Shown: positions 7,608-62,212 of the stretch, in pieces
Numbering within the stretch: position 1 is the first letter of the stretch
Layout of the letters: every line of letters begins with the position of its first letter
Assembly (NCBI RefSeq): GCF_012927455.1
Contig: NZ_JABBPE010000015.1
Location: 1-64,000, forward strand
Reading direction: 5' to 3'
Length of the DNA stretch: 64,000 nucleotides
DNA from: Polaromonas sp.
GTDB taxonomy: Bacteria; Pseudomonadota; Gammaproteobacteria; Burkholderiales; Burkholderiaceae_C
The notes under the pieces: model-generated
The model's database searches: none
What the model saw: only the letters and a program-made list of their open reading frames with translations
Told to the model about the DNA's origin: nothing
Translations under genes and position numbers: made by a program

Positions 7608-7661
7608 AAATAGGGCCCTAGCCCAGCAGCTACGGGCGCAAGTAGCTATTAAAAATATAGC
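7608..7661 (+). repeat. two-hairpin dispersed element, copy 1
   Basis: Full copy between two convergent genes (DUF1993 and DUF4864). First stem GCCC (7621) and GGGC (7634) with a 9-nt loop; second stem GCTAT (7645) and ATAGC (7657) with a 7-nt loop. Confidence 0.85.
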
Positions 7662-7677
7662 AAACAAGGCCGGGAGC

Positions 7678-8133
7678 TCACACTATGCGCCCCTTGTTTT
7701 TAACCACCACACAGCCCGTGATGCGCCACGCCTTGCTGATTTGCCGCTGCAGGCTGTAAATTGCCAACCAGGAATTTCCTGCAGCGTCGAGCATGTGGGC
7801 CCGCTGGATCACCTGGTCGCCTTGGCCCTCGGGTTTGAGAAAAGCCACCGAGGCAGGGCGGTAGACCACCGGGTAGCCATCGCGCACCATGGCTAAAAAA
7901 CCGCTTGCCGTGCCTACCGCTTGCCGCACATTGGGGGCAGCATAAGAAAACGCCTTGTCTGCATCGTCCCTGGCCAAAGCCTCCAGCTGGCCCTCCACCA
8001 CCTCACGCACGCTTTTTTCGTCGGCTGCACTGAGCGGTGCCGCACGTGCCGGAGCGAACAGCGTCAAACTGCAAACTGCGGTTATCAGCAGCCATGACAG
8101 CCGCCCTAAAACGGCATGCGATTGGACATTCAT
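7678..8133 (-). CDS. exported DUF4864 family protein
   Basis: A 151-residue protein with a Sec signal peptide (hydrophobic LLITAVCSLTLFAPARA, cleavage near ARAAP). A domain matching DUF4864 follows: VREVVEGQLEALARDDADKAFSYAAP, then GFLAMVRDGYPVVYRP and a C-terminal AWRITGCVV. The family is NTF2-like in size and likely periplasmic; no function is established. It is transcribed from a short gap also holding the next small gene on the same strand, but a hairpin and a partial repeat separate them. Confidence 0.8.
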   Translation of the reverse strand: MNVQSHAVLGRLSWLLITAVCSLTLFAPARAAPLSAADEKSVREVVEGQLEALARDDADKAFSYAAPNVRQAVGTASGFLAMVRDGYPVVYRPASVAFLKPEGQGDQVIQRAHMLDAAGNSWLAIYSLQRQISKAWRITGCVVVKNKGRIV

Positions 8134-8236
8134 GGCAGCGCCTCCCGGGGTCTCTACGTTTTTCTTTACCAGGCACCAGCAGCGACGCGACGCTAGCCAG
8201 CAAGCAAGTGCCTGCAGCGTAACGTCGCCAAATTCG

Positions 8237-8276
8237 CTGGGGGTTCCCCCAGGTTAATTGCTATTCAAAATATAGC
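8237..8276 (+). repeat. palindromic hairpin plus partial two-hairpin element, copy 2
   Basis: CTGGGGGTTCCCCCAG (8237-8252) is a 7-bp stem with a 2-nt loop. It is followed by the distal half only of the dispersed element, GCTAT (8260) to ATAGC (8276). The proximal half of the element is not recognisable here. Confidence 0.6.
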
Positions 8277-8301
8277 AGTGGGGGCTGTTTGCGCCTTCCT
8301 G

Positions 8302-8538
8302 TCAGATACCCAGCATCTTTTTGGCGCCGTCCAGGGCTTTCTCTGACTCGGCGTGTTTGCCAGCCTTGTGCAACGTCTCCCCCTCGGCGCGCAACTGTTT
8401 GACTTTGGTCATGTCTGCGGCTGACAGTGTGGTGGTTTCTGCGAGTTTGGCGTCAATGGCTTTCATTTCCATCGGGCAGCGGTTGGCAAAAGCCAACGAT
8501 GACGCGGTCAGGGCTATGGCAGCAATGATAAGTTTCAT
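8302..8538 (-). CDS. small exported helical protein, 78 aa
   Basis: Starts with a clean signal peptide (MKLIIAAIALTASSLAFA) after a GGAG ribosome site. The mature part is short and charged (about 60 residues) with one Cys directly after the cleavage site region (NRCPMEMKAID) and repeated helix-forming stretches (KLAETTTLSAADMTKVKQL, then EKALDGAKKML). It resembles small periplasmic proteins of unknown function in this bacterial group. No domain name can be given. Confidence 0.75.
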   Translation of the reverse strand: MKLIIAAIALTASSLAFANRCPMEMKAIDAKLAETTTLSAADMTKVKQLRAEGETLHKAGKHAESEKALDGAKKMLGI

Positions 8539-8792
8539 TCAAATCTCCAATAAGCATCAGAAAATTCTGACTAAAAAAATACTACCAAAGAATGCGGTGT
8601 GGCAACAGGGGGAGTAGTCCCCGCCGGGGTGCCAGATGTAACAACCGGGAAGCCCTGCTAGAAAAACAGCTCAGGCGGGCCGGCCTAAAATCGGGCTCTA
8701 GCCGGTTTTTGCTGTGATTAAATTGTTACCGATTTATTACGGAACCGTCGACTGGCACCATTCCATCCCACCTCTTCTTTTTGGGTAAACGC

Positions 8793-9455
8793 ATGTCTCT
8801 TGAAGTTATTGAAGCCCAGACCGGCGACAACCCGGTCGCCACCGTCCTGATATTGCACGGCTTGGGGGCGGACGGGCGCGACTTTGTGCCGATTGCCGAA
8901 CAACTTGATTTGTCCAGCGTGGGCCCGGTGCGGTTTTTGTTTCCAAGCGCCCCCAGCATCCCTGTCACCATCAATGGCGGTTACGTGATGCCCGCCTGGT
9001 ACGACATTCTGGTCACCGATCTGGTCAGGCGCGAAGACGAAGCCGGGTTGCGCCACTCACAGGCAGCGATCGAAGCGTTGATCGCCCACGAAAAGTCGCG
9101 CGGCATGGCGGCCCACCGCATTGTGGTGGCAGGTTTTTCCCAGGGTTGCGCACTGGCGCTCATGACGGGCTTGCGCCACAGCGAACGGCTGGCCGGCATT
9201 GTGGGCATGTCTGGCTACTTGCCGCTGGCCGACAAAACCGCTGCAGAGCGCAGCGCCGCCAATCAGGACACGCCGATCTTTCTGGCCCATGGCACGCGCG
9301 ATGGTGTGGTGGCACTGCCGCGCGCTACCGCGACGCGTGATGCGCTGACGGCACTGGGGTATTCGCTGGAGTGGCATGAGTACCTGATGGAGCACTCGGT
9401 GTGTCCGCAGGAGATCAGCGACCTGGAGCGCTGGCTGCAGCGCGTGCTGGCTTGA
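8793..9455 (+). CDS. alpha/beta-hydrolase carboxylesterase (phospholipase/thioesterase family)
   Basis: A 220-residue protein of the Abhydrolase_2 family. The sequence shows ILHGLGADGRDF (oxyanion-hole loop), FPSAPSIPVTINGGY, the nucleophile elbow GFSQG, LAHGTRDGVV carrying the acid, and a C-terminal EHSVCPQE carrying the catalytic His. It hydrolyses carboxylic or acyl-thioesters in the cytoplasm; the physiological substrate is not evident. The ATG at 8793 is used because the domain begins right after it. No operon partner. Confidence 0.9.
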   Translation: MSLEVIEAQTGDNPVATVLILHGLGADGRDFVPIAEQLDLSSVGPVRFLFPSAPSIPVTINGGYVMPAWYDILVTDLVRREDEAGLRHSQAAIEALIAHEKSRGMAAHRIVVAGFSQGCALALMTGLRHSERLAGIVGMSGYLPLADKTAAERSAANQDTPIFLAHGTRDGVVALPRATATRDALTALGYSLEWHEYLMEHSVCPQEISDLERWLQRVLA

Positions 9456-9485
9456 TCTGGGGTGGCAGGCCCACATTTCATTAGG

Positions 9486-9539
9486 AAAAATGGCTCTAGC
9501 CCATGAATAGCGGGCGCAGTCAGCTATAAAAAGCATAGC
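9486..9539 (+). repeat. two-hairpin dispersed element, copy 3
   Basis: Full copy between convergent genes (esterase and the minus-strand gene ending at 9577). Both stems are perfect: GCCC-9 nt-GGGC and GCTAT-7 nt-ATAGC. Confidence 0.85.
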
Positions 9540-9576
9540 AAACAGGCGCGCCTCTACCTCAGTTGGCGCCGTTGGC

Positions 9577-10221
9577 CTACAGCGCCGAGGGCTGTGTTTT
9601 TTCGTACCCCACGGCAATCCCGTCAAAGTGTTTGCCCAGTAGCTCGTCGCGGACCTGGAACAGGCGCTGCAGATCTTCCAATGCTTCGCTTTCTTCCGAT
9701 CGCGGGACTGCCAGGGCAATCGGCGTAAAGGCGGATGGATTAGAGGATAGCGCGGGGGGCGAGACCCCTATCACCGGGGTTTCCGGCCTTACCGATTCAA
9801 CCCAGAAAGCCTTGTCTGGCAAAGTGGTGTAGGGGCAGCTGTCGGTCATTTCGAACTGCCACGAAATGCCATGCAGCCATTCGGAGGCGCGTGGTTCAAA
9901 GCGTGCAACGTCGGCCAGCAGCGCGTTCTGCAAGGCCACGGCATAGTTCATCAGACGAGCGTCCCAGTGCCTAATGATCAGACGTACAAACAGGCCGGTG
10001 CCGCGACTGCTGCGTGATACCACCAGCATCTGCAACTCGATCCAGTGGGGCGCAATGCCGTGTTTGCGCAGCAAGTCGCGCAGCAGCACCTGTACCAACT
10101 GGCGCCGCATGGCGTTGTCCGAGCCATCTTCTATCGTCGGAGGGTGATCGCCGCTGGTGCGCTCGGCGGCGGCTAACGCGGCTTTTGGCGCGCCAAATAA
10201 CCTTCGCATCATATTTTTCAT
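9577..10221 (-). CDS. hypothetical protein, 214 aa
   Basis: A cytoplasmic-looking protein with no signal peptide. It contains a run resembling a small alpha/beta domain (QLVQVLLRDLLRKHGI, then WIELQMLVVSRSSRG and GLFVRLIIRHWDARLM) and an acidic C-terminus (SEESEALEDLQRLFQVRDEL). I do not recognise the family. Several Met codons at the N-terminus make the exact start uncertain by up to five residues. Confidence 0.7.
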   Translation of the reverse strand: MKNMMRRLFGAPKAALAAAERTSGDHPPTIEDGSDNAMRRQLVQVLLRDLLRKHGIAPHWIELQMLVVSRSSRGTGLFVRLIIRHWDARLMNYAVALQNALLADVARFEPRASEWLHGISWQFEMTDSCPYTTLPDKAFWVESVRPETPVIGVSPPALSSNPSAFTPIALAVPRSEESEALEDLQRLFQVRDELLGKHFDGIAVGYEKTQPSAL

Positions 10222-10555
10222 AGTTATCCAAGCTCCAACACTCTTTTTTGCTGATTAAAGTCTCGTAGAGCCGTCATGTTATCAGAGTGTTACTAAATGT
10301 TATATGACCAAATTTCGGCTGCGGATCAGGCGACGGAAGTTTGCGGCGGAGGGCGGCTAAAATTCATTTTGTCTTTATGTCCTGGCATTGCGGCGCGGAA
10401 GGGCGCCACCATTAGCTTGACAGGCCGTAGCGCCAGGCTTGACTGCCACCTTCAACACCCCGCCCGCGCCATGCAGTCAAGCCGCAGGGCGCCTGCGCGA
10501 AGCGCTGGCCTGTGCTACCTTTCACGACACTTCAAGAATCTCGGGGAATCACCTT
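10222..10555. other. intergenic region upstream of gshA
   Basis: A 334-bp gap between divergent genes. Open frames run through it without recognisable products. No clear operator or terminator was seen; the promoters of gshA and of the minus-strand hypothetical gene must lie here. Confidence 0.4.
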
Positions 10556-12130
10556 ATGACCAAGTTGCAGGCGCCTGCGGGCGCGCCCATGCAGGAGCGC
10601 TTGAAAGCGCTGACCCCGGCCCGGCTTAAGGGCATGCGCCGCGGTATCGAAAAAGAAAGCCTGCGTGCCCAGCCCGGGGGCGGTCTGGCGCTGACGCCGC
10701 ACCCGGCGGCGCTTGGCTCGGCACTGACGCACCCGGGCATCACTACCGACTTCAGCGAGTCGCAGGTGGAGCTGGTCACGGCCGCGCACCCGAGCGCTGA
10801 AGCGGCGTTGCTAGAACTCACGCAGTTGCACCAGTTCACCTTGCGCGCCATGAAAGACATGGGCGACGAAATGCTCTGGGTGTCCAGCATGCCCTGCGAT
10901 TTGCCGACAGACGAGACCATTCCGATTGCCCGCTTTGGCGCGTCCAACGTCGGGCGCGCCAAAAGCGTCTACCGCATGGGCCTGAGTCACCGCTATGGGC
11001 GGCGCATGCAGACCATCTCGGGCATTCACTACAACTGGTCCTTGCCCGAGGTCACGAGCGAGCAATACTTTGCGCTAATTCGCAATTTTCGGCGCCACGC
11101 GTTCTTGCTGCTTTACCTGTTTGGCGCTTCGCCCGCCGTCTGTTCAACCTTTGTGGCAGGCCGCCCGCACGAGCTGCAGCCGCTGTCGAAAAGCACCATG
11201 TACATGCCGCACGGCACTTCGCTGCGCATGGGGCGGCTGGGTTACCAGAGCGATGCGCAGGCATCGCTTGCAGTCAGCTACAACAGTCTGGAGGGCTACG
11301 GCGCATCGCTGCAAGAGGCGCTGACCCGGCCCTATCCGGCCTACGAGGCGGTGGGCATACGCAACCCGGGCGGCGACTACAACCAGCTGGCCACCACGCT
11401 GCTGCAGATTGAAAACGAGTTTTACGGCACCATCCGGCCCAAGCGCGTGATCTTTCCGGGCGAGCGCCCACTGCACGCGCTGCGCGAGCGCGGCGTCGAG
11501 TATGTCGAAGTGCGCCTGATGGACCTGGACCCGTTCGAGCCGGTCGGCATCACCGCGCAAACCATGCGTTTTCTCGATGTGTTCTTGCTGCACTGCCTGC
11601 TGAGCGATAGCCCGCCCGACACGCCAGCCGAGATCGCCGAGCTCAAACACAACCAGCACCACACCGCTGCGCGCGGCCGTGAACCCGGCCTTGCGTTAAA
11701 GCGCGCCGGTGGCGAGGTGGCGCTGACCGAGTGGGGCGCCGAGGTGCTCGCACAATGCGCGCCCATCGCCTCCGCGCTGGATGCCGCGCAAGGCGACAGC
11801 TGCTACAGCGACGCCCTGGCGGCGGCCGATGCAGCGCTGCTTGATGCGAGCACCCTGCCGTCGGCGCGCGTGCTGGCCGCCATGGTGCAGGACTTTGACA
11901 ACTCCTTCGTCAAGTTTGCCCGGGCCCAGTCCAAGAAGACCCGAACTGCGCTGCAAGCTCTGCCGCTAAGTGCCGAGCAGCAGGCGCGGCTGGTTGCCCT
12001 GAGCGAGCAATCCATCCTGGAGCAAAAGAAAATTGAAGCGGCGGACGCCATGCCCTTTGAGGTCTACCGCCAGCAGTATGTGTCGGCCGAGCGGCTGGGT
12101 GTTCCGGACCAAGTGGCGGTGCATGCCTGA
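10556..12130 (+). CDS. gshA: glutamate-cysteine ligase
   Basis: A 524-residue protein that makes gamma-glutamylcysteine, the first step of glutathione synthesis. It matches the proteobacterial GshA type: GMRRGIEKESLRAQP, TDFSESQVELVT (metal/glutamate site), QTISGIHYNWSLP, KSTMYMPHGTSLRMGRLGY and EYVEVRLMDLDPF. The length is typical. The start at 10556 is chosen because conservation begins there; the frame opens 39 codons earlier with unrelated sequence. It is monocistronic here and ends before a copy of the dispersed repeat. Confidence 0.95.
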   Translation: MTKLQAPAGAPMQERLKALTPARLKGMRRGIEKESLRAQPGGGLALTPHPAALGSALTHPGITTDFSESQVELVTAAHPSAEAALLELTQLHQFTLRAMKDMGDEMLWVSSMPCDLPTDETIPIARFGASNVGRAKSVYRMGLSHRYGRRMQTISGIHYNWSLPEVTSEQYFALIRNFRRHAFLLLYLFGASPAVCSTFVAGRPHELQPLSKSTMYMPHGTSLRMGRLGYQSDAQASLAVSYNSLEGYGASLQEALTRPYPAYEAVGIRNPGGDYNQLATTLLQIENEFYGTIRPKRVIFPGERPLHALRERGVEYVEVRLMDLDPFEPVGITAQTMRFLDVFLLHCLLSDSPPDTPAEIAELKHNQHHTAARGREPGLALKRAGGEVALTEWGAEVLAQCAPIASALDAAQGDSCYSDALAAADAALLDASTLPSARVLAAMVQDFDNSFVKFARAQSKKTRTALQALPLSAEQQARLVALSEQSILEQKKIEAADAMPFEVYRQQYVSAERLGVPDQVAVHA

Positions 12131-12158
12131 CAAGATCCAGAAGCCGAAAATTACAGGT

Positions 12159-12212
12159 AAATAGTGCTCTAGCCCATATAGAACGGGCGTAAACAGCTAT
12201 CAATTTAGTAGC
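12159..12212 (+). repeat. two-hairpin dispersed element, copy 4
   Basis: Full copy between gshA and the convergent small membrane protein gene. First stem GCCC/GGGC perfect; second stem GCTAT pairs with GTAGC, one G-U wobble in RNA terms. Confidence 0.85.
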
Positions 12213-12245
12213 GAATTACGAAGCAATGCTGCCGCTCGCGCCAGC

Positions 12246-15526: not shown

Positions 15527-15615
15527 GAGTGGCTTCCTTAAGTCAGGCCGGCGCCCGCGGGATGGTATGCGCCAGATTAACGCTGAATTGCAAATAAAAA
15601 ACACATTTTAGGTGC

Positions 15616-15670
15616 AAAAAATGCCTCTAGCCCATATGGATCAGGCGCAAGCAGCTATCAAAAACATAGC
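15616..15670 (+). repeat. two-hairpin dispersed element, copy 5
   Basis: Copy between two minus-strand genes, so antisense to their transcription. The first stem is weakened (GCCC against AGGC); the second stem GCTAT/ATAGC is perfect. Confidence 0.8.
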
Positions 15671-15757
15671 GGTCATGGGCCGGCAGGGATTCATGGTCGG
15701 CCTGGCGTTATCAGTTCCGCAGCTTATTTTACGTAGCGCCAAGCGGAAGCGGAAGGT

Positions 15758-17861: not shown

Positions 17862-17885
17862 CCATTTTTTTAAAAGGAGAAACGC

Positions 17886-33396: not shown

Positions 33397-34161
33397 ATGC
33401 CGCGCGTCGTTTTCAATCAAAAAGGTGGAGTGGGCAAGTCCACCATCACCTGCAACCTGGCCGCCATCAGCGCCAGCCAGGGTCTGCGCACCCTGGTCAT
33501 AGACCTCGATCCGCAGGGCAACTCCAGCGCCTATCTGATGGGCGCGCAGGCAACGGAAGACATGCCCAGCGTGGCCGGCTTCTTTGAAAACACCTTGAGC
33601 TACAGTTTGCGCAGCGTCGCCCCCAGCGAATTCATCGTGGCCACACCGCATGAAAACCTCCACCTGATGCATTCCAGCCCGGCACTTGGCGAATTGCAGG
33701 GTAAGCTCGAATCGCGCCACAAGATCTACAAGCTGCGGGAAGCCCTGCAGCAGCTCGCCGGCGACTACGACCGCATCTACATCGACACGCCGCCGGCGCT
33801 TAATTTCTACACCCGCTCGGCGCTGATTGCCGCGCGCGGCTGCCTGATTCCGTTTGACTGCGACGATTTTTCACGCAAGGCGCTGTACACGCTGCTGGAG
33901 AACGTGCAGGAGATCCAGGCCGACCACAACCCCCAGCTGGTGGTTGAAGGCATCGTGGTGAACCAGTTCCAGCCGCGCGCCAACCTGCCGCAGCGCCTGG
34001 TCGATGAACTGATCGCCGAAGGCCTGCCGGTGCTGCAGCCCTACCTGCCATCCTCCGTCAAGATCCGCGAATCGCACGAGCAGTCGCTGCCCATGATTTA
34101 CCTGGACCCCGGCCACAAGCTAACGCAGGCGCTGGTGGCGCTGCACGGGGCGCTGAGGTAA
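33397..34161 (+). CDS. ParA family ATPase
   Basis: A 254-residue deviant-Walker ATPase: VFNQKGGVGKSTITCNLAA (Walker A with signature Lys), LRTLVIDLDPQGN and YDRIYIDTPPALNFY. No parB-like gene or parS site is adjacent, so it is an orphan ParA of the kind that positions protein assemblies or plasmid-like cargo. The start at 33397 has an AAGGAG site; upstream codons in frame are not conserved. Possible link to the two-component genes just before it is only positional. Confidence 0.88.
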   Translation: MPRVVFNQKGGVGKSTITCNLAAISASQGLRTLVIDLDPQGNSSAYLMGAQATEDMPSVAGFFENTLSYSLRSVAPSEFIVATPHENLHLMHSSPALGELQGKLESRHKIYKLREALQQLAGDYDRIYIDTPPALNFYTRSALIAARGCLIPFDCDDFSRKALYTLLENVQEIQADHNPQLVVEGIVVNQFQPRANLPQRLVDELIAEGLPVLQPYLPSSVKIRESHEQSLPMIYLDPGHKLTQALVALHGALR

Positions 34162-34199
34162 CGCTGCGGCGAGCCGCTGCGTGCGCCCGTGGCGGATAT

Positions 34200-34254
34200 A
34201 AAAACAGGCTGCAGACCCTATGGAACGGGCGCTAGCTGCTATTGAATTTGTAGC
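34200..34254 (+). repeat. two-hairpin dispersed element, copy 6
   Basis: First stem shortened to CCC/GGG; second stem GCTAT pairs with GTAGC (one wobble). First of a same-strand pair. Confidence 0.8.
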
Positions 34255-34326
34255 GTTCTGCGCCCGCTGCAGGCGGTTCCCGGGCCGGATACGGGTGTGA
34301 CAGCAGAATTTGCTGATTTATCCATC

Positions 34327-34380
34327 AAATTGGCTTCAAGCCCATACAGGACGGGCGCAAGCAGCTATTAAAACTATAGC
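34327..34380 (+). repeat. two-hairpin dispersed element, copy 7
   Basis: Both stems perfect (GCCC/GGGC with 9-nt loop, GCTAT/ATAGC with 7-nt loop). One of the copies closest to consensus. Confidence 0.87.
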
Positions 34381-34598
34381 GACCGATGAGTAGTGCAGCC
34401 CAGGCCGCGCTGTTTTGCCGGCCGGGCCCGGGTGACTGGGGCCGGCTGCCCGCGTCCCGCCTGCTACGCAGCGCCCACTTGTCAGCGCGCCCTGGACCTG
34501 ACTCAGGTTGACGCGCCAGCGCTTGCGGACTAGATTTCGCTGAAAGGGGCGTTGAATTTCCGGTTTCTCATTTCGACGCCCCATCGCGGAGACCCTTC

Positions 34599-37132: not shown

Positions 37133-37604
37133 GGGGCGGTTATTTCATTCAAATGGGGTGATGGGGGCCTTAAAAAGGCATCAAATAAGCCTCTAGCCCT
37201 TATTAAACGGGCGCAAGCAGCTATTAAAACGATAGCAGTCTAGTCCCTCAATTTTAGTGTACGGGGGCTGGCCACGAGGGCGGCCGGTATTGCAGGGCGA
37301 AATGCTCAAGCTGACGTCATGTCGCGTCATCGTCTTACAACAGATGACGCCTTACTTGCAAGCAGACGTTGGCGTGGCAAGGCCAATCCAGGCTGCCCGT
37401 TGGCGTCGGTTGTTCAAAAAAATCTTTAAAAATCAAACACTTGGCGCAAACGATGTGCCCGTATACGGTCGTTTGCGAGCAGCCCGTCAGGCGCCGCTAC
37501 GGCTTTGGCGGCGCCATCAAACAAGTGGAATCGGCCGAAAAAGCGCTAACGCGGCGCTTACAGCCCGAAACGTCCGTTGTAATTTGCGGCCATAAGGTAC
37601 GCCC
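37133..37604. other. intergenic region between the methyltransferase and CAP-domain genes
   Basis: 472 bp between divergent genes with one full dispersed element (37183-37236). An open frame at 37369-37608 has no recognisable product. No operator recognised. Confidence 0.4.
37183..37236 (+). repeat. two-hairpin dispersed element, copy 8
   Basis: Both stems perfect. It lies about 50 bp upstream of the minus-strand methyltransferase start, so it may sit in that gene's promoter or leader region. Confidence 0.87.
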
Positions 37605-38468: not shown

Positions 38469-38607
38469 CCCGTAAGCCGGGCCCGGCGCTGTAAGTCAGT
38501 CGCGCCACGCTTACAGCCCTTGGCGCTGCCGGTTGCGCCCGCTACCAGCCCTGACACGCCGGGCAGCAACTGGCCCAGCGCGCAAAGGGCTTCCCAAGTC
38601 ATCCCTT

Positions 38608-38661
38608 GAATTGCCTGCTAGCGCAGCATGCACCAGCGTTGGCAGCTATTAAAAGCATAGC
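38608..38661 (+). repeat. two-hairpin dispersed element, copy 9 (degraded)
   Basis: Only the distal stem GCTAT/ATAGC is intact; the proximal half is weakly recognisable by position and a few matches. Confidence 0.6.
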
Positions 38662-38923
38662 GATCAAGCCCCCCGACAGGCCGAGCGGCTATGCCCTGGC
38701 ACTTCGCCTGCGCACCCCCCGCTCGAAAAATCCGGAACGCCGCGCGCATCCCGTCCATCTAATGGACAGGAAGCTCGTGAATGCCCCGCAAACCCTGCCC
38801 ACTGTGCCCCTTGATCGCGGCTTGACCGCTCACCGGGGAAGAGGGCGCCAGTTCTTGCAGGGTCGAAAAAAAACGCGCAGGGGCTGAATTCAATTGTTTT
38901 GATGGAACTCCAGGAGAAAAACC

Positions 38924-42614: not shown

Positions 42615-43100
42615 TTAGGCGACCATGTCGACCTGGCTGTCGATGGCGGGGTGGCCCTTGCCTTCACCGCGCGCACCTTCACCGGCTTCGCGGGCGACGA
42701 CATCGCCTTTGACGTCGGTCAGGGGGTGGCCCTTGCCTTCACCGCGCGCACCTTCACCGGCTTCGCGGGCGACGACATCGCCTTTGACGTCGGTCAGGGG
42801 GTGGCCCTTGCCTTCACCGCGCGCGCCTTCACCGGCTTCGCGGGCGACGACATCGCCTTTGACGTCGCTCAGGGGATGGCCTTTGCCCTCGCCCTTGCCC
42901 CGGCCTTTGCCTTCGCCCTCGCCGCGCGCGCCTTCACCGGCTTCGCGGGCAACGGCGTCGCCCATGGTTTCGATGGCGGGGTGGCCCCTGCCTTCACCGC
43001 GTGCGCCTTCGCCGGCCTCACGGGCAAAAGAAGCGGTTACTGCGCTGGCACCAATCGCGAAGACGGCGGCAGCCATGGCAATTTTGTTGAGCTTGATCAT
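42615..43100 (-). CDS. exported protein of five 25-residue repeats
   Basis: A 161-residue protein. Signal peptide MIKLNKIAMAAAVFAIGAS to about ASFA, then five units beginning REAGEGARGEG and ending in a KGHPLTDVKGDVVA-type segment. Unit 2 has an extra Gly/Lys/Glu stretch. At the DNA level units 3-5 are nearly identical 75-bp direct repeats. The mature protein is Gly, Glu, Arg and Lys-rich with no Cys and is probably disordered. The start at 43100 follows AGGAG. Function unknown. Confidence 0.8.
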   Translation of the reverse strand: MIKLNKIAMAAAVFAIGASAVTASFAREAGEGARGEGRGHPAIETMGDAVAREAGEGARGEGEGKGRGKGEGKGHPLSDVKGDVVAREAGEGARGEGKGHPLTDVKGDVVAREAGEGARGEGKGHPLTDVKGDVVAREAGEGARGEGKGHPAIDSQVDMVA

Positions 43101-44468: not shown

Positions 44469-44874
44469 TCAGGCCAAGTATGGGTAAGCGCGCTTCAGGC
44501 TCATCAAGCGCTTGAGGCTTGCAGGCAGCCCGCCAGGGCGGCGAAAGCGGGCGTCTTGGTACCTGGCACTGAAACCGCTATGCAGTGGCGGTTTCAGTGA
44601 AAAATCTATTTGTAGCCCAATGAATATGGGCGTTAGTAGCTATCTAAATCATAGCATCATGATGACGCCGATGGGCCATGAACGCCGCCAATTCCAGTCA
44701 CATCTGATTGGCGTTCCCAGCCGGCGTGATGGTTATACCTAAACTTTGCCTAAACGCTTGCCGTTACTATTGCCTGTACTGCTTGCCCCATAAGCGCGCC
44801 AAGGCTTCTGGCTTCGCGTGTGGGGATGGTAAAGCGGAAAAGATATTTGTTGATGCCTGAAGGAGTGCCTGGTT
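44469..44874. other. intergenic region with long hairpin and dispersed element
   Basis: 406 bp. A 14-bp stem with one mismatch (CACTGAAACCGCTA at 44567 with TGGCGGTTTCAGTG at 44586) directly abuts a full dispersed element (44600-44655). No gene seen in the rest. Confidence 0.5.
44600..44655 (+). repeat. two-hairpin dispersed element, copy 10
   Basis: Both stems perfect. It begins exactly where the 14-bp-stem hairpin ends, so the three hairpins stand in a row. Confidence 0.85.
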
Positions 44875-46038: not shown

Positions 46039-46129
46039 CGGGCCGAGTGTACGTCGGTCGGTGTCATCGGCGCGACCGCAGGATGGTCGGCTAAATCTGG
46101 TATCGCGTATCCGTCTAAAAATTAAAATA

Positions 46130-46182
46130 AATCCCCCAAAGCCCCCGTGCAGCATGCGCAAGCAGCTATATAAAAGAGAGCG
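46130..46182 (+). repeat. two-hairpin dispersed element, copy 11 (degraded)
   Basis: Proximal and distal stems are both damaged (GCCC against GCGC; GCTAT against AGAGC), but the linker GCGCAAGCAGCTAT is intact. Confidence 0.65.
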
Positions 46183-46605
46183 AGTGTGAGTTTTTTAAGT
46201 TCATGGGTAGCCGTTCTAATGCAGCAGGAATTCCGCTCAAGCGGCTTCAGTTGAGTCCGCCAGCCATTGGTTTCAGCGAGACTAACTTGTACTCAAATTA
46301 AGTCAGGGCTAAGAGATATGGCCATCTGGTCAACCTGTTCACGCTGATCGACTTGATCACCAACGATGTGTCGCTGCACGTCATCCTCTGGAGCGACAAA
46401 GGCGTGAGCTGGTCGGCGCCCGCGAAGCTGGCCGACGCGCCTTTTTCGGCGCGACCGATTCCGGGAGCGGCGTCCCCATCCGTGACGGCTCCATCCCGGC
46501 GCAGCTCGGCATCAGCCCGCGGAACAGCAGAACAGCAGAACAGCAAAACAGCACCAACTCGATTCAAAACGCAGCACGAGCTGCGTAGTTACGTAAAAAG
46601 GGTAA

Positions 46606-46658
46606 AAATAGGGTCTAGCCCCTATGGAATGTGCGCAAGCAGCTATCATTACCGTAGC
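46606..46658 (+). repeat. two-hairpin dispersed element, copy 12
   Basis: First stem degraded (GCCC against GTGC), second GCTAT/GTAGC with one wobble. It ends 12 bp before the ankyrin gene start codon, in its translation-initiation region. Confidence 0.8.
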
Positions 46659-46670
46659 AGAAAAATCATC

Positions 46671-50432: not shown

Positions 50433-52283
50433 ATGACTTTTGAAATTGACATTGGGTTTACTTCGCTGCCTGGCCGCAGGAACATCAACGAGGACTTTTG
50501 CGCCGCCATGCTGCCAGAGCCGGGAAGCGAAGGCATGGGCTCGATCGCGGCGATTGCCGATGGCGTGAGCGCGGGTGGCATGGGCAAGGAGGCGGCGCAA
50601 ACCACGGTCACCAGCCTGGTGCGCGACTACTTCGGCACGCCAGAGACCTGGGACACCACGGTGGCACTGGACCGCATCATTGCCGCGCAAAACACCTGGC
50701 TGGCCGGCATCAACCGGCGCCGTCAGCCGGCCATGGGCCTGACCACTTTGACGGCGCTGGTGCTGCGTGGCCAGTCCTACACGCTGGCGCATGTGGGCGA
50801 TTCACGGGCCTACCTGCTGCGTGGCGGCACCACCGTGCAACTCACCAACGACCACGTCGTGCCGCATCCCGATTTCAAGCACCAGCTGCTGCGCTCGGTT
50901 GGCGCTGAAGACCATTTGATGGTGGACTACCTGCAGGGCGATTTGCATGTGGGCGATGTGTTTGTGCTGGTGACTGACGGCGTGCATGGCGCGCTGCGCG
51001 CCAGCGTGTTCGAGGCGAGCCTGGGTCAATTGACCGAATCCGGCAATGCGCAAGACGCCAGCCAACAACTGGTGAGCGTCGCCCTGACCGCAGGCAGCCT
51101 TGACAACGCGACCGCGCTGGTGGTGCGCGTGTTGGGCCTGCTGGACGCTACGCTGCAAGACGTCAACCGCATCGCGCAGACCCTGCCGATTCCGCCGCGT
51201 CTGAAGGTGGGCGAGGTGATTGACGGCTTGAGCGTGACCGCGCCTGTGGCCGACAACGGCATCAATGTGATCTACCAAGTCAAGTATGTGGCCCCCACGC
51301 CCGGCACTGATGTGTCCGTGCTGCCCCCCGAGGGGGCTGAACTTGTTCGGGGCGGCCCTTCGCGGCGTTCGGTTGCCCCCACGCCCGGCAGCAGCGGCAA
51401 GCGGTATGCCCTGAAGACGCTGAACCCGGCCAGAGCCCACGATGAGCAGGAACGCGCCATGCTGGCGCACGAGTCCTGGCTGGCCAGCCGCATGCAGACC
51501 GGCCGCGCGGCCGAGCATCTGGTCAGGCTGCACGAACAGTTGCCCAGCGGGCGCGAGCGCAGCGCCTTTTATCTGCTTTACGACTGGCACAGCGGCGAAA
51601 CACTGCAGCGGCAAATTGATCGCGGCCAGCTGTTCAGCGTGCAGCAAGCCCTGGGCGTGGCCACGCAGGCGGCGCGCGCGCTGGGGCAACTGCACCGCCA
51701 GTGCGTTATTCACCGCGACATCAAGCCCGCCAATTTGCACCAGGGCGAAGACGGCGTGCTGCGCCTGCTCGATCTGGGCGTGGCGCTAAGCGGGCGCGAG
51801 CCGGCGGCCATGCGCCGGCTGCACGCCGGCACCCCCAGCTTTATCAACCCCGAGCAGTGGGGTTACAGCGCCGCGTCAAGCGACGGGCCGGAAGAACTGC
51901 CCGATGCGCAAAGCGACCTGTTTGCACTTGGGGTGACGCTGTACCAATTGCTCACCAGCAAGCTGCCCTACGGCGAGGTGCTGCCCTATCAGGCCGGCCG
52001 CTACTATCGCGACCCGCAAGCGCCCAGCCGCCTCAACCCCCAGGTGCCAATCTGGCTTGATCACATCGTGCTGAAAGCCGTGGCGCGCGACAAACGCAGA
52101 CGTTTTGAAACGGCAGAGGAGCTGCTGCTGGCGCTGGAGCGTGGCGCATCGCGGCCTTTGAGTGCTCCACAACCGACCCCGCTGATACAGCGGGACCCGG
52201 CGGCGATCTGGAAGCTCGCTCTGGTGCTGTCTGGGCTGTTCAATCTGCTGTTGGTGTACTGGCTGCTGTTTTTGCCGAAATAG
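50433..52283 (+). CDS. PP2C phosphatase / Ser-Thr kinase fusion with C-terminal membrane anchor
   Basis: A 616-residue protein. Residues 1-250: PP2C domain (RRNINEDFCAAM, IADGVSAGGMG, AHVGDSRAYLL, LVTDGVHG, LDNATALVV). Residues 270-590: protein kinase (YALKTL with the Lys, CVIHRDIKPANL, LLDLGVALSG with DLG for DFG, GTPSFINPEQWG, DLFALGVTLYQLL). Residues 593-615: one membrane helix. An 84-bp in-frame insertion (residues about 287-314) extends the kinase N-lobe between two beta strands. It could phosphorylate and dephosphorylate the same targets. Confidence 0.93.
   Translation: MTFEIDIGFTSLPGRRNINEDFCAAMLPEPGSEGMGSIAAIADGVSAGGMGKEAAQTTVTSLVRDYFGTPETWDTTVALDRIIAAQNTWLAGINRRRQPAMGLTTLTALVLRGQSYTLAHVGDSRAYLLRGGTTVQLTNDHVVPHPDFKHQLLRSVGAEDHLMVDYLQGDLHVGDVFVLVTDGVHGALRASVFEASLGQLTESGNAQDASQQLVSVALTAGSLDNATALVVRVLGLLDATLQDVNRIAQTLPIPPRLKVGEVIDGLSVTAPVADNGINVIYQVKYVAPTPGTDVSVLPPEGAELVRGGPSRRSVAPTPGSSGKRYALKTLNPARAHDEQERAMLAHESWLASRMQTGRAAEHLVRLHEQLPSGRERSAFYLLYDWHSGETLQRQIDRGQLFSVQQALGVATQAARALGQLHRQCVIHRDIKPANLHQGEDGVLRLLDLGVALSGREPAAMRRLHAGTPSFINPEQWGYSAASSDGPEELPDAQSDLFALGVTLYQLLTSKLPYGEVLPYQAGRYYRDPQAPSRLNPQVPIWLDHIVLKAVARDKRRRFETAEELLLALERGASRPLSAPQPTPLIQRDPAAIWKLALVLSGLFNLLLVYWLLFLPK
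51291..51390 (+). repeat. in-frame GC-rich insertion flanked by 16-bp direct repeats inside the kinase gene
   Basis: GCCCCCACGCCCGGCA occurs at 51291-51306 and 51375-51390. Between them is a 68-bp segment with a hairpin GCCCCC-CGA-GGGGGC and GTTCGGGG, GGCGTTCGG motifs. Deleting one repeat plus the segment leaves a seamless kinase N-lobe. The segment resembles GC-rich palindromic repeats I associate with this bacterial family (recall, not searched). Confidence 0.75.
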
Positions 52284-52288
52284 GCATT

Positions 52289-52342
52289 AAAAACGGCTCT
52301 AGCCCAATGAATTAAGGCGCAGGCAGCTATCTATTTGATAGC
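52289..52342 (+). repeat. two-hairpin dispersed element, copy 13
   Basis: Directly after the kinase gene stop. First stem reduced (GCCC against AGGC), second perfect. Confidence 0.82.
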
Positions 52343-52533
52343 GACAGTGCGTACCGACCGGCTCAGGCCTATAGTTGCCAGAATTGGAAACCGATCAGAC
52401 CGGCTGCACGTTTGACGCTGCTGCATACTGGTCAGATTCGCATATCTGCGTATCCGCATGTTCGGGCAAGACGCTACGCTGCTATTCGAGGCCTGTTTGA
52501 TCGGGCCGCCCGCTAACTTTTTCAGGAATTGCT

Positions 52534-53154: not shown

Positions 53155-53177
53155 CGCGTTCCCCAGGATTTATCATT

Positions 53178-53231
53178 TAAAGTGGCTCTAGCCCATACAG
53201 GATGGACGCAAGACGCTTCTAAATTGATAGC
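53178..53231 (+). repeat. two-hairpin dispersed element, copy 14
   Basis: Both stems carry one mismatch (GCCC/GGAC; GCTTC/ATAGC). It follows the isochorismatase gene. Confidence 0.75.
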
Positions 53232-53424
53232 AATTCAGGTGGGCACGCAGGGCTATCGGATTTAAATTCAAGACGACAAAGCGCGAGGCATCGATTTCTC
53301 GCATAGTGATCCTTCGGTTGTCGGGCATGCTGGCTCCAGCAAAAAGCTGGCAGGGCCACCCGTATCGGTTGGGGAAGAATATGCGCAGCAGCACACGCTG
53401 CCGTTTTAATGTCATTCTGGCGTC

Positions 53425-55098: not shown

Positions 55099-55435
55099 CT
55101 GGGTCGACCGTGCTGCAGCAGCTTCTCTGATGTGCACCGAAACGGAAAACGGACGGCACCTCAACAAACAGCTTGTTGCATTGCATCGCAGTGCGGTTCG
55201 CTTGGCGGGCTCTATGGACTGCTCGGGAAATCACCGATTTTCCAAAATAAATTGGCTGTAGACCAATATCTACAGGCGCAAGCAGCTATTTATTTGATAG
55301 CGCTCAAGGGCGCCTCGTCGTCACTTGCGGTGCCGTCAGCTTGCCGCAAGTCCTCTATCCATAATTAGCAATTCAGCTTTCTGGCGATAGCCTTCACCGT
55401 TCGTCTGTTTTTCCATCCTTCAAGGAGACATCACC
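55099..55435. other. intergenic region upstream of acuI
   Basis: 337 bp with a dispersed element (55249-55301). The promoter of the acuI-prpE pair should lie in the last 130 bp; none is called. Confidence 0.4.
55249..55301 (+). repeat. two-hairpin dispersed element, copy 15
   Basis: First stem damaged (GACC against AGGC), second stem GCTAT/ATAGC perfect. Confidence 0.8.
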
Positions 55436-56413: not shown

Positions 56414-56447
56414 AACATTCAACATTGAAATAGTTTGGAGACAACGC

Positions 56448-58361: not shown

Positions 58362-58380
58362 CGCTGCGCGGCCCGCTTAC

Positions 58381-58399
58381 AACACCCATCCTGGGTGTT
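58381..58399 (+). terminator. hairpin after prpE
   Basis: AACACCCA and TGGGTGTT form an 8-bp stem with a 3-nt loop, 19 bp after the prpE stop. No T-run follows; instead a dispersed element begins at once. Confidence 0.5.
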
Positions 58400-58452
58400 A
58401 AAGTGCCTGCAGCCCATGTTTTACGGGCGTGGTGTGCTATATAAAAAATAGC
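58399..58452 (+). repeat. two-hairpin dispersed element, copy 16
   Basis: Both stems perfect; the linker is divergent (GTGGTGT). It sits between prpE and the broken soxD, where soxC would be expected. Confidence 0.82.
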
Positions 58453-58587
58453 ATGCCGGCACCCCCGCAGTAGCTGCATAGCGGCGCCGGGAATTGGCCG
58501 GAAGGGCCGATTGCCCGGCGCTCATGGTTGGGACGCCATTCCTTTCCTTCTTCTCTTTTTCAAGGCCTGCTTAGTTCCCCGGGCTAG

Positions 58588-59589
58588 GCGCGCGTTGAGC
58601 CGAATGAATCGCGTGAGTCGCAGACCCCGCTGGCGGACATTGGGCGAACCGCCAGCGCCGCAGAAATCAGCGCCTGAGATATCGATGTGCGGCCCGACTT
58701 CAAGGGGCTGCCGGCCGGGCAGGGCTCGGTGCATCAGGGCGAGCTGTTATGGGAAGCGCGCTGCGCCTCCTGCCATGGCACATTTGCCGAAGCGTCCCAT
58801 GTGTTCACGCCGATAGCCGGCGGCGTGGCGGCCCAGGACCTGAAAACCGGCCGGGTGGCCAGCCTGCTGCCGGGCGCCAACCAACCCAACCGCACCACCT
58901 TGATGAAGCTGTCCACGCTGTCTACGCTGTGGGATTACATCAACCGGGCCATGCCCTTGAACGCGCCCAAAACCTTGACGGCCGACGAGGTCTACGCCGC
59001 TACTGCCTACATCCTGTATCTGGGCTGCCCCGCAAAGCCCGACGTCCAGGGATCGGCTTGCATGCGTAACTGCAAGACTGAAGTCGTCATTACGAGCGTT
59101 TTGCCCGAGCATGCGCGCAACGCCCATGGCTACTTGGCGGACCAGTCGCGCCTGGTGGGTGCCAGCCGCGGGGCCGATACCCGTCAACTTTCAATCGCTG
59201 CAAACGCACAGCCAAATACGGCTGCAGCCCAGACGCAGCGGGCGCAAGCTGCTCCTGAAAAAGGAGCGCCTGCGGGCCTGTTAGCGGGTGCCGGGGTGGC
59301 TGCTGCGGCGCAGGCGCCGCGTGTGGCTATAGAGCCGCCGCCGCAAAGCGGGGCGTGTGCAGCTTGCCACAGCATGGATATCAAACTGCTGGGGCCGTCC
59401 TTCAAGGACATCGCCAGCAAATACAAGGACCGCCCCGACGCTGTAAATTACCTCTCGGGCAAAATTAGAGCCGGCGGACAGGGTGTCTGGGGCGCAATGG
59501 CGATGCCGGCGCAGGCCCTGAGCGAGGAGCAATCGCTGCAACTGGCCGCGTGGCTGATGCAGTCGCCGTTGGCTGCAGGGGATAGGTAG
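58588..59589 (+). pseudogene. soxD: soxD remnant (sulfite dehydrogenase cytochrome subunit), 5' end lost
   Basis: SoxD-type sequence with two heme sites: CASCHGTFAEASHVFTPIAGG and SGACAACHSMDIKLLGPSF. In frame upstream the homology continues as IGRTASAAEISA, then a TGA at 58675-58677 where the family has Trp, then DIDVRPDFKGLP. A TAG at 58585-58587 closes the frame before any signal peptide. An internal start (GTG 58687) would give a protein that cannot be exported, so the hemes could not attach. The partner soxC is absent upstream. A dispersed element lies in the linker. Confidence 0.85.
59212..59267 (+). repeat. two-hairpin dispersed element, copy 17, inside soxD coding frame
   Basis: First stem GCCC-9 nt-GGGC intact. 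Second stem reads GCTCC-7 nt-GGAGC instead of GCTAT/ATAGC, with paired changes that keep it folded. It encodes NTAAAQTQRAQAAPEKGA in the linker between the two cytochrome domains. Confidence 0.8.
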
Positions 59590-59692
59590 ACCGAGTTGAA
59601 ATTACCGTGTGGAGACAGGCTTTGGAGAGGAAAATTTGCGCAGGTTTGAGTTTCTCGTCCCCAAGTATTCATTTAGTCGTGTCAAGTTTCAA

Positions 59693-59708
59693 GACTGTAA
59701 AGACAGTC
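59693..59708. promoter_or_regulatory. inverted repeat upstream of soxY
   Basis: GACTGT-AAAG-ACAGTC, 27 bp before the soxY start codon. It could be an operator or an mRNA hairpin in the leader. No regulator gene is present in the window to pair it with. Confidence 0.45.
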
Positions 59709-59734
59709 AAGTCATATAAAAAAGGAGTTCAACC

Positions 59735-60202
59735 ATGGAACGTCGTAAATTTTTGGCCAGCAGCTCAGGCGCTGGCGCGCTGGCATTGGCTGGCGCTTCG
59801 GGCTTGACGCCAGCCTATGCGCAAAACGCGCCGGGCTGGAATAAGGTAGCTTTTGAAGGCAAATCGCTGGCCGAGGTTGCCAAGGCCCTGGGCGCCAGCG
59901 CCGCGCCGGTAGAAAGCAAGGAGTTGCTGTTGCAAGCGCCCGAGATTGCCGAAAACGGCAGTGTGGTGCGCGTCGCCGCGCAAAGCAGCCTGCCAGGTAC
60001 CGTGCAGATTGCCTTCATCGTCGAGAAGAACCCGAACGCCCTGGCTGCGCTGTTTGAGGTGCCTGCCGGTACCGACGCCAATGTCTCGACCAACATCAAG
60101 ATGGGCCAGTCGTCCAATGTGTATGCGCTGGCCAAAGTGGGCGACAAGTATTTTTACGCTGTCAAGGAAGTCAAGGTCACGCTGGGCGGTTGCGGCGGGT
60201 AA
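59735..60202 (+). CDS. soxY: thiosulfate oxidation carrier protein SoxY
   Basis: A 155-residue periplasmic protein with a twin-arginine signal (MERRKFLASSSGAG). The mature part has the SoxY immunoglobulin-like fold and ends in the carrier motif VTLGGCGG; the Cys carries the sulfur intermediates during thiosulfate oxidation. Strong AAAGGAG site. First intact gene of soxYZAXB. Confidence 0.95.
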   Translation: MERRKFLASSSGAGALALAGASGLTPAYAQNAPGWNKVAFEGKSLAEVAKALGASAAPVESKELLLQAPEIAENGSVVRVAAQSSLPGTVQIAFIVEKNPNALAALFEVPAGTDANVSTNIKMGQSSNVYALAKVGDKYFYAVKEVKVTLGGCGG

Positions 60203-60264
60203 CTCAGTTAAGGCGCGCAGCAGCCCTGTTTAACCTACATAACATTCGAAGTCAGGAGAAAAAA

Positions 60265-60576
60265 ATGTCAGATCCCATGCGAATTCGGGCCCAGGCCCTG
60301 GCCGATAAGACCATGGTGCGCGTGCTGGTCAGCCACGAGATGGAAAGCGGTCAACGCAAGGACGCCGCAGGCAAAATCGTGCCGGCCTGGTTTATCCAGA
60401 TGATCAGCGCCAGCTGGAATGGCAAAACTGTCATGAGTGCCCAATGGGGTACGGCGGTCTCCAAAAATCCCTTCGTACAGTTCAGCTTCAAGGGCGGCAA
60501 GGCCGGCGACAAGATCGCCGTGAGCTGGACCGACAACCGCGGTGAGCAGCGCACCGACGAAGCCGTCATTACTTGA
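60265..60576 (+). CDS. soxZ: thiosulfate oxidation carrier complex protein SoxZ
   Basis: A 103-residue protein without its own signal peptide: MRIRAQALADKTMVRVLVSHEM, MISASWNGKTVMSAQWG, NPFVQFSFKGGKAGDKI and a final VSWTDNRGEQRTDEAVI. It pairs with SoxY and probably travels with it through the Tat route. Starts at 60265 after AGGAG. Confidence 0.95.
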   Translation: MSDPMRIRAQALADKTMVRVLVSHEMESGQRKDAAGKIVPAWFIQMISASWNGKTVMSAQWGTAVSKNPFVQFSFKGGKAGDKIAVSWTDNRGEQRTDEAVIT

Positions 60577-60639
60577 GCCTTCTATCAACTTGCCCCAAGC
60601 TGCAGCAGGCGCGCGATGCAAAAAGGAAGTGAGAAAACC

Positions 60640-61458
60640 ATGATGAAATTCAGCCTTTTCGGGCCTCTAACGGTGCTGGGGCTGGCGACGTTGGGCTTTG
60701 CACCCCTGCCTGCGGCTGCGCAGAAAAGCACGGCGGAAGGCATTGCCGAATATCGTGCCATGCTGGCTGACGGCAATCCGGCTGAGTTGTTTGAGGGCCG
60801 GGGCGAGGTGCTCTGGAAGCAGCCACGCGGTCCCAAAAAGGCATCGCTGGAAAAATGCGACCTGGGCCAGGGGGCTGGCGTGGTGAAGGGCGCTTTTGTC
60901 GAATTGCCGCGTTTTTTTGCTGACACGCAGCGCGTGCAGGACCTGGAGTCGCGCCTGCTCAGTTGCATGGAGCAGTTGCAGGGCTTTAGCGCCGCCGAGA
61001 TTGCCAAAACCCCGTTCGGTGCCGGCGAGCAAAAGACCATGGAATCGCTGGTGGCCTATATTTCCGGCGAGTCGCGCGGTCTGCAATTCAATCTGCCGCA
61101 AAGCCACGTCAAGGAAAAGCTGATGTACGAAGTCGGCAAGAAGGTGTTTTACCTGCGCGGCGGCCCCTACGATTTTTCATGCGCTTCCTGCCATGGCGAA
61201 GACAACAAGCGCGTGCGGCTGCAAGACCTGCCCAATCTGACGCGTCAGCCAGGCGCCAGCATCGGGTTTGGTGCCTGGCCAGCTTATCGGGTCTCCAGTG
61301 GCGAGCTGTGGAGCATGCAGCGCCGCCTCAACGATTGTTACCGGCAACAGCGTTTTCCGTTTCCGGGCTATGCCTCCGACGCAACCATCGCCCTGGGCGT
61401 GTACATGGGCGTGAACAGCGAGGGCGGGGCGGCTACGGCGCCTGCCTTGAAACGCTAA
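60640..61458 (+). CDS. soxA: sulfur oxidation c-type cytochrome SoxA
   Basis: A 272-residue protein with signal peptide (ending PLPAAAQ). One heme site CASCHG and the distal Cys ligand region LNDCYRQQRFPFPGY, which becomes the persulfide Cys in SoxAX. The first-heme position of diheme SoxA is not a CxxCH here (SLEKCDLGQ and LLSCMEQLQG likely form a disulfide), so this is the monoheme type. With SoxX it joins thiosulfate to SoxY. Confidence 0.94.
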   Translation: MMKFSLFGPLTVLGLATLGFAPLPAAAQKSTAEGIAEYRAMLADGNPAELFEGRGEVLWKQPRGPKKASLEKCDLGQGAGVVKGAFVELPRFFADTQRVQDLESRLLSCMEQLQGFSAAEIAKTPFGAGEQKTMESLVAYISGESRGLQFNLPQSHVKEKLMYEVGKKVFYLRGGPYDFSCASCHGEDNKRVRLQDLPNLTRQPGASIGFGAWPAYRVSSGELWSMQRRLNDCYRQQRFPFPGYASDATIALGVYMGVNSEGGAATAPALKR

Positions 61459-61483
61459 GACGTCCCCGGCAAGAAGGATTGAC

Positions 61484-62149
61484 ATGAACAAGACACCCAA
61501 AAACGCGGCGCTGCTGGCCCTGAACCTGGCCTGCAGCCTGGCGCTGACCAGTTGCGCCGTGGCGCCGACTTCTCCCAGCGCGCAGCAAGTTGACGAAGCC
61601 ACCCGGCTGGCCATGCAAAGCTCGTTTCGCGAGCAAGGCGTGGCCAAACTCGATCGCCTGAAGCTCGACGCCTCCAATCAGGCCTGCTCGGACGCGGCGG
61701 GTGCGTCACTCGACCAGAAGCTGGGCCAATCGATAGAAGCGGCCAACCTGAAGACGGTCAAGCTGCCCTTGGACGGAAAATACATCGGCAACTGGAGCGA
61801 GGGCGAAAAAATTGCCCAGAACGGCCGCGGTATGACCTGGAGCGACAGGCCCGGCGAGGCCAACGGTGGCAGCTGCTACAACTGCCACCAGATCAGCAAG
61901 GCCGAGCTGTCCTTCGGCTCCATCGGCCCCAGCCTGTACAACTACGGCAAGCTGCGCGGCGTCAGTGATCCGGCGGCCGCCGACAGCAAAGCCGTCGTGG
62001 AGTACACCTGGGGCCGGCTGTGGAATGCCAAAGCCTACAAGGCTTGCTCCGACATGCCGCGCTTTGGCCACGCGGGTATTTTGAGTGAACAGCAAATTCG
62101 CGACGTGATGGCCTTGCTGCTTGACCCGCAATCACCGGTCAATAAATAA
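61484..62149 (+). CDS. soxX: sulfur oxidation c-type cytochrome SoxX
   Basis: A 221-residue protein, longer than the classic SoxX, with a lipobox-like LALTSCAV at the N-terminus and a 60-residue extra segment before the cytochrome domain. Heme site CYNCHQ and Met ligand CSDMPRFGH. Forms the SoxAX complex. Coupled with soxA at 25-bp spacing. Confidence 0.93.
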   Translation: MNKTPKNAALLALNLACSLALTSCAVAPTSPSAQQVDEATRLAMQSSFREQGVAKLDRLKLDASNQACSDAAGASLDQKLGQSIEAANLKTVKLPLDGKYIGNWSEGEKIAQNGRGMTWSDRPGEANGGSCYNCHQISKAELSFGSIGPSLYNYGKLRGVSDPAAADSKAVVEYTWGRLWNAKAYKACSDMPRFGHAGILSEQQIRDVMALLLDPQSPVNK

Positions 62150-62157
62150 TTGACAGC

Positions 62158-62212
62158 ATTTTAGGCCTATAGCCCAATGAATACGGGCGCAAGCAGCTAT
62201 CAAAGTAATAGC
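62158..62212 (+). repeat. two-hairpin dispersed element, copy 18, inside the sox operon
   Basis: Both stems perfect. It fills most of the 106-bp gap between soxX and soxB, so its RNA hairpins would lie within the sox transcript and could alter soxB expression. Confidence 0.85.

Follow-up and report, generated by a model that had tools for sequence, protein, structure and literature searches.

We describe here a short dispersed repeat from the first 64,000 nt of contig C12 (C12:1-64000, hereafter the window) of a Polaromonas genome of 4.47 Mb in 22 contigs. The repeat is about 61 nt long as modelled, is non-autonomous, and is concentrated in one bacterial family. With moderate confidence, we propose that it forms a population similar to the repetitive extragenic palindromes (REPs), co-evolving with a resident REP-associated tyrosine transposase (RAYT) of the HuH/Y1 type, named here RAYT-A. 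On our best reading the population is old and slow, and is dispersed by RAYT-A or co-evolves with it; judged from sequence comparison, RAYT-A is a probable, unproven source of the repeats.

A covariance model was built from 17 window copies and then searched against the window with cmsearch. This retrieved 17 full-length copies (E ≤1.2e-14), all on the + strand (Table 1), while the weaker candidates were reverse-strand matches lying on top of copies (E 0.0028 to 0.025) and one + match at 8200-8279 (E 0.029). An earlier examination of the window, made without database searches (the sequence-only reading), had listed 18 copies or partials: the dispersed repeat was recovered and the number corrected. 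The core described there, GCCC-N9-GGGC-N7-GCTAT-N7-ATAGC, proved robust, with 13 matches in the window at up to two mismatches, all on the + strand, against 0.01 expected from shuffles. All 17 copies aligned without gaps, therefore the spacing is constant, as had been stated. The stem pairing, also described as invariant, does vary, because all four arms are free of mismatches in only 7 of the 17 copies. The inter-stem GCAAGCA, thought to be nearly always present, is exact in just 7/17, and GGCTCTAGCCC, presented as common to the copies, occurs exactly only 3 times in the window. Upstream of alignment column 1, conserved positions were found in 159 copies (T-rich at 4-6 nt and C-rich at 10-11 nt before it), therefore the element unit is nearer 70 nt.

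Using a profile refined on two contigs, with a threshold set at the best score of order-3 random sequence plus 3 bits, we counted 192 copies over 864 kb of the genome; the covariance model gave 155 in the same 864 kb at E ≤1e-6. Absence of the element elsewhere in the genome, which the sequence-only reading had named as evidence that would tell against it, is ruled out: the 150 whole-genome matches listed all have E ≤7.4e-15, so that at least 150 matches exist at this level. Among 299 genomes of the family, which we take to be Comamonadaceae, 119 had at least one match at 0.001, covering 64 of 141 genera, in agreement with the earlier view of a non-autonomous element of this bacterial group. 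Within the window's genus, 46 of 61 genomes were matched and the other 15 (e.g., G013, G352, and G354) had no match at this threshold. Per-genome counts that reach 18, 89, or 150 are lower bounds, so the abundance classes are coarse. Exact matches to the strict pattern were found in 36 contig stretches, all from Polaromonas, Rhodoferax, or Simplicispira. An order-wide draw of 300 genomes, searched with a six-genus model, gave nine matching genomes at 1e-5, six of them from the window's family (its own genome included) and three from other families (G481, G528, and G551) with one match each. One element copy used as query against a plasmid collection gave no match. In the open PubMed Central papers searched there was no description of the repeat and no match to a 14-letter core of either strand; a repeat common in Polaromonas, Rhodoferax, and Simplicispira thus appears undescribed in the literature searched.

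The element had been suspected to be moved by a transposase encoded elsewhere, and sequence comparison provides a candidate: RAYT-A, a Y1_Tnp gene of 235 aa on contig C15 (265,527-266,231), outside the window, which in many genomes carries an element-like 3′ tail. It is one of two Y1_Tnp genes in the genome, both at the cut-off of the NCBIfam model for REP-associated tyrosine transposases. RAYT-A scores 80.2 bits with NF047646 (cut-off 80) and 40.8 with PF01797 (cut-off 23), and the solved structures include a single weak relative, TnpA-REP 4er8 (E 0.0044). A homologue (E ≤1e-20) is present in 282 of the 299 family genomes and in 60 of the 61 of the genus, mostly once per genome; weaker matches may be other RAYTs. 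No helix-turn-helix (HTH) domain was found in RAYT-A at E ≤1; HTH matches of the second RAYT (281 aa, contig C17) stay under the curated cut-offs. Inverted repeats enclose RAYT-A, namely GGGTCAGGTTCCAATTA upstream and a TAATTGGAATCTGACCCC-like sequence with an inner TGTCCCCAATTA downstream. The upstream repeat has the motif GGGTCAG, the downstream ones, read on the opposite strand, GGGGTCAG and GGGGACA. They are close to GGGGWSAS, the motif given for terminal inverted repeat-associated tyrosine transposases (TIRYTs) in the available parts of PMC3733652 and PMC6006769, the upstream copy being one G short. The TAATTGGAATCTGACCCC-like terminal repeat follows RAYT-A in most of the printed loci (L127-L156, L185-L212, and L273-L312), and a 16-letter piece of it has one match at two mismatches in the 864 kb of the window's genome.

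In many genomes, the stretch that separates the RAYT-A stop codon from TGTCCC holds an element-like sequence in sense orientation. In this module the last letters of the element give way to the terminal repeat, with GCTATNAAATTTGATGTGTCCC in place of GCTATNAAATTTGATAGC. We compared 20 element-rich genomes (11 genera) with 20 element-free ones (12 other genera), all picked by hand among the RAYT-A matches listed. The best 3′ sense score exceeded 8 in 11/20 rich and 0/20 free genomes (p 3.3e-5); among the controls, the rich and free counts were 2 and 0 for 3′ antisense (p 0.019), 3 and 0 for 5′ sense (p 0.13), and 2 and 1 for 5′ antisense (p 0.14). The distance from the best start to the terminal repeat was 56-57 nt in 13/20 rich genomes and in 2/20 free ones (G058 and G187). 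Over 98 RAYT loci scored in a fixed register, the module exceeded 8 in 27/67 rich, 3/7 poor, and 0/24 free genomes, 9 of these 24 not being scorable (Fisher p 5e-5, without tree correction). Among the rich genomes, 20/37 of other genera had such a module. The terminal repeat begins within 10 nt of the RAYT-A stop in 9/23 element-free loci and in 0/67 rich ones. The scoring profile does not contain the RAYT module, because the stretches of G000, G160, and G161 from which it was derived miss the gene; with this profile the module found in the window's genome reaches 33 in the fixed register, and with an earlier one 14.3. Furthermore, six modules were scored with six genome-specific profiles, excluding G294's own module from its copies. 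Jointly, the modules fit the spelling of the genome that carries them better than row and column effects explain, with 2 of 720 permutations as good (2 of 120 without G294).

A competing explanation is that an unrelated repeat landed early behind RAYT-A and was then inherited, the true mover being another, perhaps lost, enzyme. Shared ancestry is compatible with the RAYT tree, the presence of the element is independent of that of a RAYT-A homologue, and 3′ ends in general often have a sense copy (44 of 526 genes above 8). Against such a landing, the register to the terminal repeat is identical in several RAYT branches, the modules jointly fit genome-specific spelling, and the module is absent from all 24 element-free genomes, of which 15 could be scored. 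We regard this explanation as rather unlikely.

A number of results weigh against a system centred on RAYT-A. The RAYT tree implies at least 10 changes in abundance and at least 21 in the module, and shared ancestry is not separated from cause, because just two independent pairs lie on supported branches; the rich and free genomes of the 20 versus 20 comparison have no genus in common. Element matches occur in 111/282 genomes with a RAYT-A homologue and in 8/17 without one (p 0.61). These eight include two complete genomes, G296 and G310, with 16 matches each, besides G080 and G203 (at least 18 each, incomplete) and G171, G303, G126, and G264 (1 to 4). The module exceeds 8 in only 7 of the 30 element-rich genomes of the window's genus, where the earlier profile also scored it low in most genomes; it stands on the 3′ side of RAYT-A, not on both sides; and the own profile gives the best raw score for only two of the six modules (G160 and G161). 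The locus of the second RAYT (2.4 kb, starting at a contig end) contains no copy above 8. There is no sign of recent movement, because no clean empty site was seen and no pair among the 192 copies exceeds 90% identity. Finally, a rule linking the strand of the element to the replication arm was rejected, being without bias in unbiased samples (31/65 in G160 and 42/77 in G161).

The mechanism that we propose for the co-evolving population is as follows. RAYT-A or its ancestors would recognise the two-hairpin single strand and would copy or move the element rarely, without forming target duplications. Selection would then purge copies at gene starts and spare those at gene ends, and the module behind the RAYT-A stop codon may have founded the population or have been captured from it. 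It is a more demanding idea, and in our opinion quite unlikely, that the module is a master copy seeding the repeats of each genome and travelling with RAYT-A, while the genome-wide spelling drifts along. If true, the REP system would be built around a RAYT with terminal repeats on both sides, and for RAYTs of this kind REPs are mostly not reported. The origin of REP populations, and what keeps a domesticated transposase tied to them, is an open question. It could be addressed here by comparison and simple biochemistry, in a family of repeats spread over 64 of 141 sampled genera, with an in-register module in many members and relatives lacking both.

The element likely forms two hairpins. In the consensus sequences of seven genera, GCTA and ATAGC flank a seven-letter loop in all. 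The first hairpin is GCCC/GGGC in the window's genome, GCGCTTG/CAAGCGC or near it in G055, G160, and G334 (less perfect in G161), and GCGC/GCGC in G257, and G294 has no good stem. Pairing takes a different register in each of the two main spellings, namely columns 18-34 and 18-36. The covariance test proposed by the sequence-only reading gave a mixed outcome. In this genome (150 copies and 500 shuffles, on an alignment that had been fitted to the structure), two of five measures were above shuffles: pairs with a double change (6 versus 2.6; 1/500) and further pair types (11 versus 7.7; 2/500). Conversely, the cells paired (92.3 versus 92.1%), the double-change cells (6 versus 5.6), and the covariation score were not. 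Among 47 copies of six genera, none of the five measures beat shuffles in register 18-36, while three did in register 18-34 (cells paired, 79.4 versus 77.6%; double-change cells, 11 versus 3.5; score, 6/500 shuffles), the signal coming from pairs 20-32 and 46-54. The mean folding energies of hairpin 1, compared with plain column shuffles, gave z values of -5.3, -4.0, and -1.6, beating the shuffles in two of three genomes. When letters were shuffled among copies of similar score, the effect was weak in this genome (z -2.1) and not seen in the two others (-0.8 and -0.1).

The placement of the element was evaluated on the 192 copies, with gene positions from a home-made gene caller: 131 copies are intergenic, 60 lie inside predicted genes, and one is at a gene edge. 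Considering gaps of at least 50 nt, the 74 convergent gaps hold 40 copies, the 289 tandem gaps 72, and the 90 divergent gaps 19; those in tandem gaps comprise 47 sense and 25 antisense copies (p 0.013). When every intergenic copy is assigned to its closest gene end, this is a 3′ end in 90/131 cases (55 sense and 35 antisense) and a 5′ end in the others (24 and 17, respectively). Per gene, a score above 8 was found at the 3′ end of 44 (sense) and 35 (antisense) of 526 genes and at the 5′ end of 12 and 10; here a copy in a convergent gap counts for both genes. A similar placement, at gene ends and in convergent gaps, is reported for REPs in the available part of PMC3733652.

The sites of six window copies were compared with stretches of 19 relatives. 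At the 62155 site, a + copy is present in the corresponding gap of 7/9 relatives having both flanks, and at the 59210 site in the corresponding stretch of 6/8 relatives; the flanks of these two sites are 71-86% identical to the relatives. Both copies are old, because most relatives carry a copy on the same strand. The 58395 site, with a copy in 2/4 colinear relatives, is not comparable because the gaps measure 1.9-3.2 kb. For the 52285, 53174, and 55244 sites, no relative aligned on both sides. No copy was found at the 34197/34323 place in G354 and G003, at the 37179 place in G360, G341, and G003, at the 44598 place in G360, or at the 46124 place in G354 and G003. None of these is a clean empty site among the relatives compared, because the DNA of the gaps is not alignable. 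The two most similar of the 192 copies share 90% identity.

These data could also be read as the trace of an element serving the host at the ends of genes (an RNA stabiliser, a transcription-end signal, or a protein-binding site) and kept by selection rather than mobility. The preference for 3′ ends and convergent gaps, the sense excess in tandem gaps, and the same-strand copies conserved in 7/9 and 6/8 relatives agree with such a use. Nevertheless, 15 of the 61 genomes of the genus have no match at 0.001, the second hairpin is not followed by a T-run on the element strand, no Rfam match reached its gathering score in the window, and the covariation is mixed. We hold host use improbable as the explanation of the repeat. 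The sequence-only reading had likened the fold to that of both REP-like and MITE-like (miniature inverted-repeat transposable element) elements. The REP-like side found support in the dispersed copies and their position at gene ends. A MITE derived from an insertion sequence with a DDE transposase would fit an element that is short, dispersed, and palindromic in parts; however, the outer boundaries of 159 copies show no target duplication for any length from 3 to 9 nt, and the sole excess (k 4, 0.044 versus 0.010) links positions within the element. Judged from these boundaries, such an origin is very unlikely.

The population co-evolving with RAYT-A was compared with the systems described in the REP/REPIN-RAYT literature (PMC3733652, PMC8049555, PMC2817692, and PMC3116915, all considered in part). 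It works like a REP-RAYT system, without the GTAG foot or the REPIN doublet. As in such systems, copies are many (>100), mostly intergenic, at gene ends and in convergent gaps, the RAYT is usually single-copy in the genomes searched, and no target duplication was found. Conversely, no GT[AG]G or GGAG was seen by eye at the foot of either hairpin in the seven-genus consensus, as would be expected for REPs of the GTAG class, and the two hairpin-like parts stand in a fixed frame. Unlike the REPIN doublet, the element is mostly single: there are five overlapping inverted pairs and four others below 400 nt, making 9 neighbour pairs below this distance where about 16 are expected. One inverted dimer, in locus L056 at 1082-1180 (C9 101,082-101,180), consists of two opposite high-scoring copies with a common second hairpin. 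Moreover, the element copy at the RAYT gene is only on the 3′ side, fused to the terminal repeat. According to the available part of PMC8049555, RAYTs are single-copy genes, slow and passed on vertically, and E. coli genomes retaining the RAYT have more REPINs; the first part of this picture is similar here, whereas the link with abundance is not seen at the level of presence. None of the genus names was matched in the part of PMC2817692 available.

RAYT-A resembles the TIRYT/TIRtron genes in being bounded by GGGGWSAS-like terminal inverted repeats, and the system differs from them in that the dispersed repeat is distinct from the terminal repeat. In the available parts of PMC6006769 and PMC3733652, subclass 2.1 (20 of 26 described TIRYTs) has HTH domains and no REP-like repeats, and according to the former no REP-like repeats were found in subclasses 2.1 and 2.3. 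The lack of an HTH match in RAYT-A therefore speaks against subclass 2.1, whose HTH is C-terminal. A further comparison concerns BRE, a repeat of about 90 bp with an average of 69% G+C in Bordetella that can be tandem, listed for Polaromonas, Rhodoferax, Acidovorax, and other Comamonadaceae (PMC3110155, in its available part). Both are dispersed repeats of Polaromonas, Rhodoferax, and other Comamonadaceae; the one studied here is shorter, has 34-64% G+C in the window, and is mostly single, a separation made by description and not by alignment.

All window copies are on the + strand; the window genes are 39 on + and 18 on -. Along C12 1-180,000 we found 24 consecutive + copies, then 23 on -, then mostly +, and gene direction matches these blocks only in part. 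In cross-validation, the strand was predicted with a value of 0.51-0.56 by the nearest genes, 0.60 by local gene bias, and 0.67 by neighbouring elements. Among the 150 matches listed for G160, the rejected arm rule, with the terminus set at 1.70 Mb, fits 90 (p 0.018), or 87 and 89 with the terminus at 1.65 and 1.75 Mb; by score, it fits 33/50 of the best third and 26/50 of the lowest third.

Table 1. Copies of the element in the window, with their covariance model (cmsearch) scores
Feature	Coordinates	Strand	Score	Remarks
Element copy	7604..7664	+	68.9 bits	E 2.1e-21
Element copy	9482..9542	+	66 bits	
Element copy	12155..12215	+	65.2 bits	
Element copy	15613..15673	+	72.1 bits	Top score of the window
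Element copy	34197..34257	+	60.7 bits	35 nt past the stop of a ParA-like gene (33397-34161)
Element copy	34323..34383	+	70 bits	Start 126 nt after the start of the 34197 copy
Element copy	37179..37239	+	71.4 bits	
Diverged element copy	38604..38664	+	50.4 bits	
Element copy	44598..44658	+	57.5 bits	
Diverged element copy	46124..46184	+	49.2 bits	Copy also in the corresponding gap of relative G360
Element copy	46601..46661	+	57.1 bits	
Element copy	52285..52345	+	62.9 bits	Immediately past a gene ending at 52283
Element copy	53174..53234	+	56.9 bits	
Element copy	55244..55304	+	64.5 bits	
Diverged element copy	58395..58455	+	50.8 bits	
Element copy	59210..59270	+	57.7 bits	GC-rich second stem; within predicted gene 58687-59589
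Element copy	62155..62215	+	61.7 bits	Between two same-strand genes

Other repeats were also observed in the window. Positions 1-300 and 5840-6139 are identical 300-nt stretches, 5.8 kb apart and near other, more diverged repeats, and at 42618-43073 overlapping repeat copies follow each other at 75 and 105 nt spacing within a predicted coding region.

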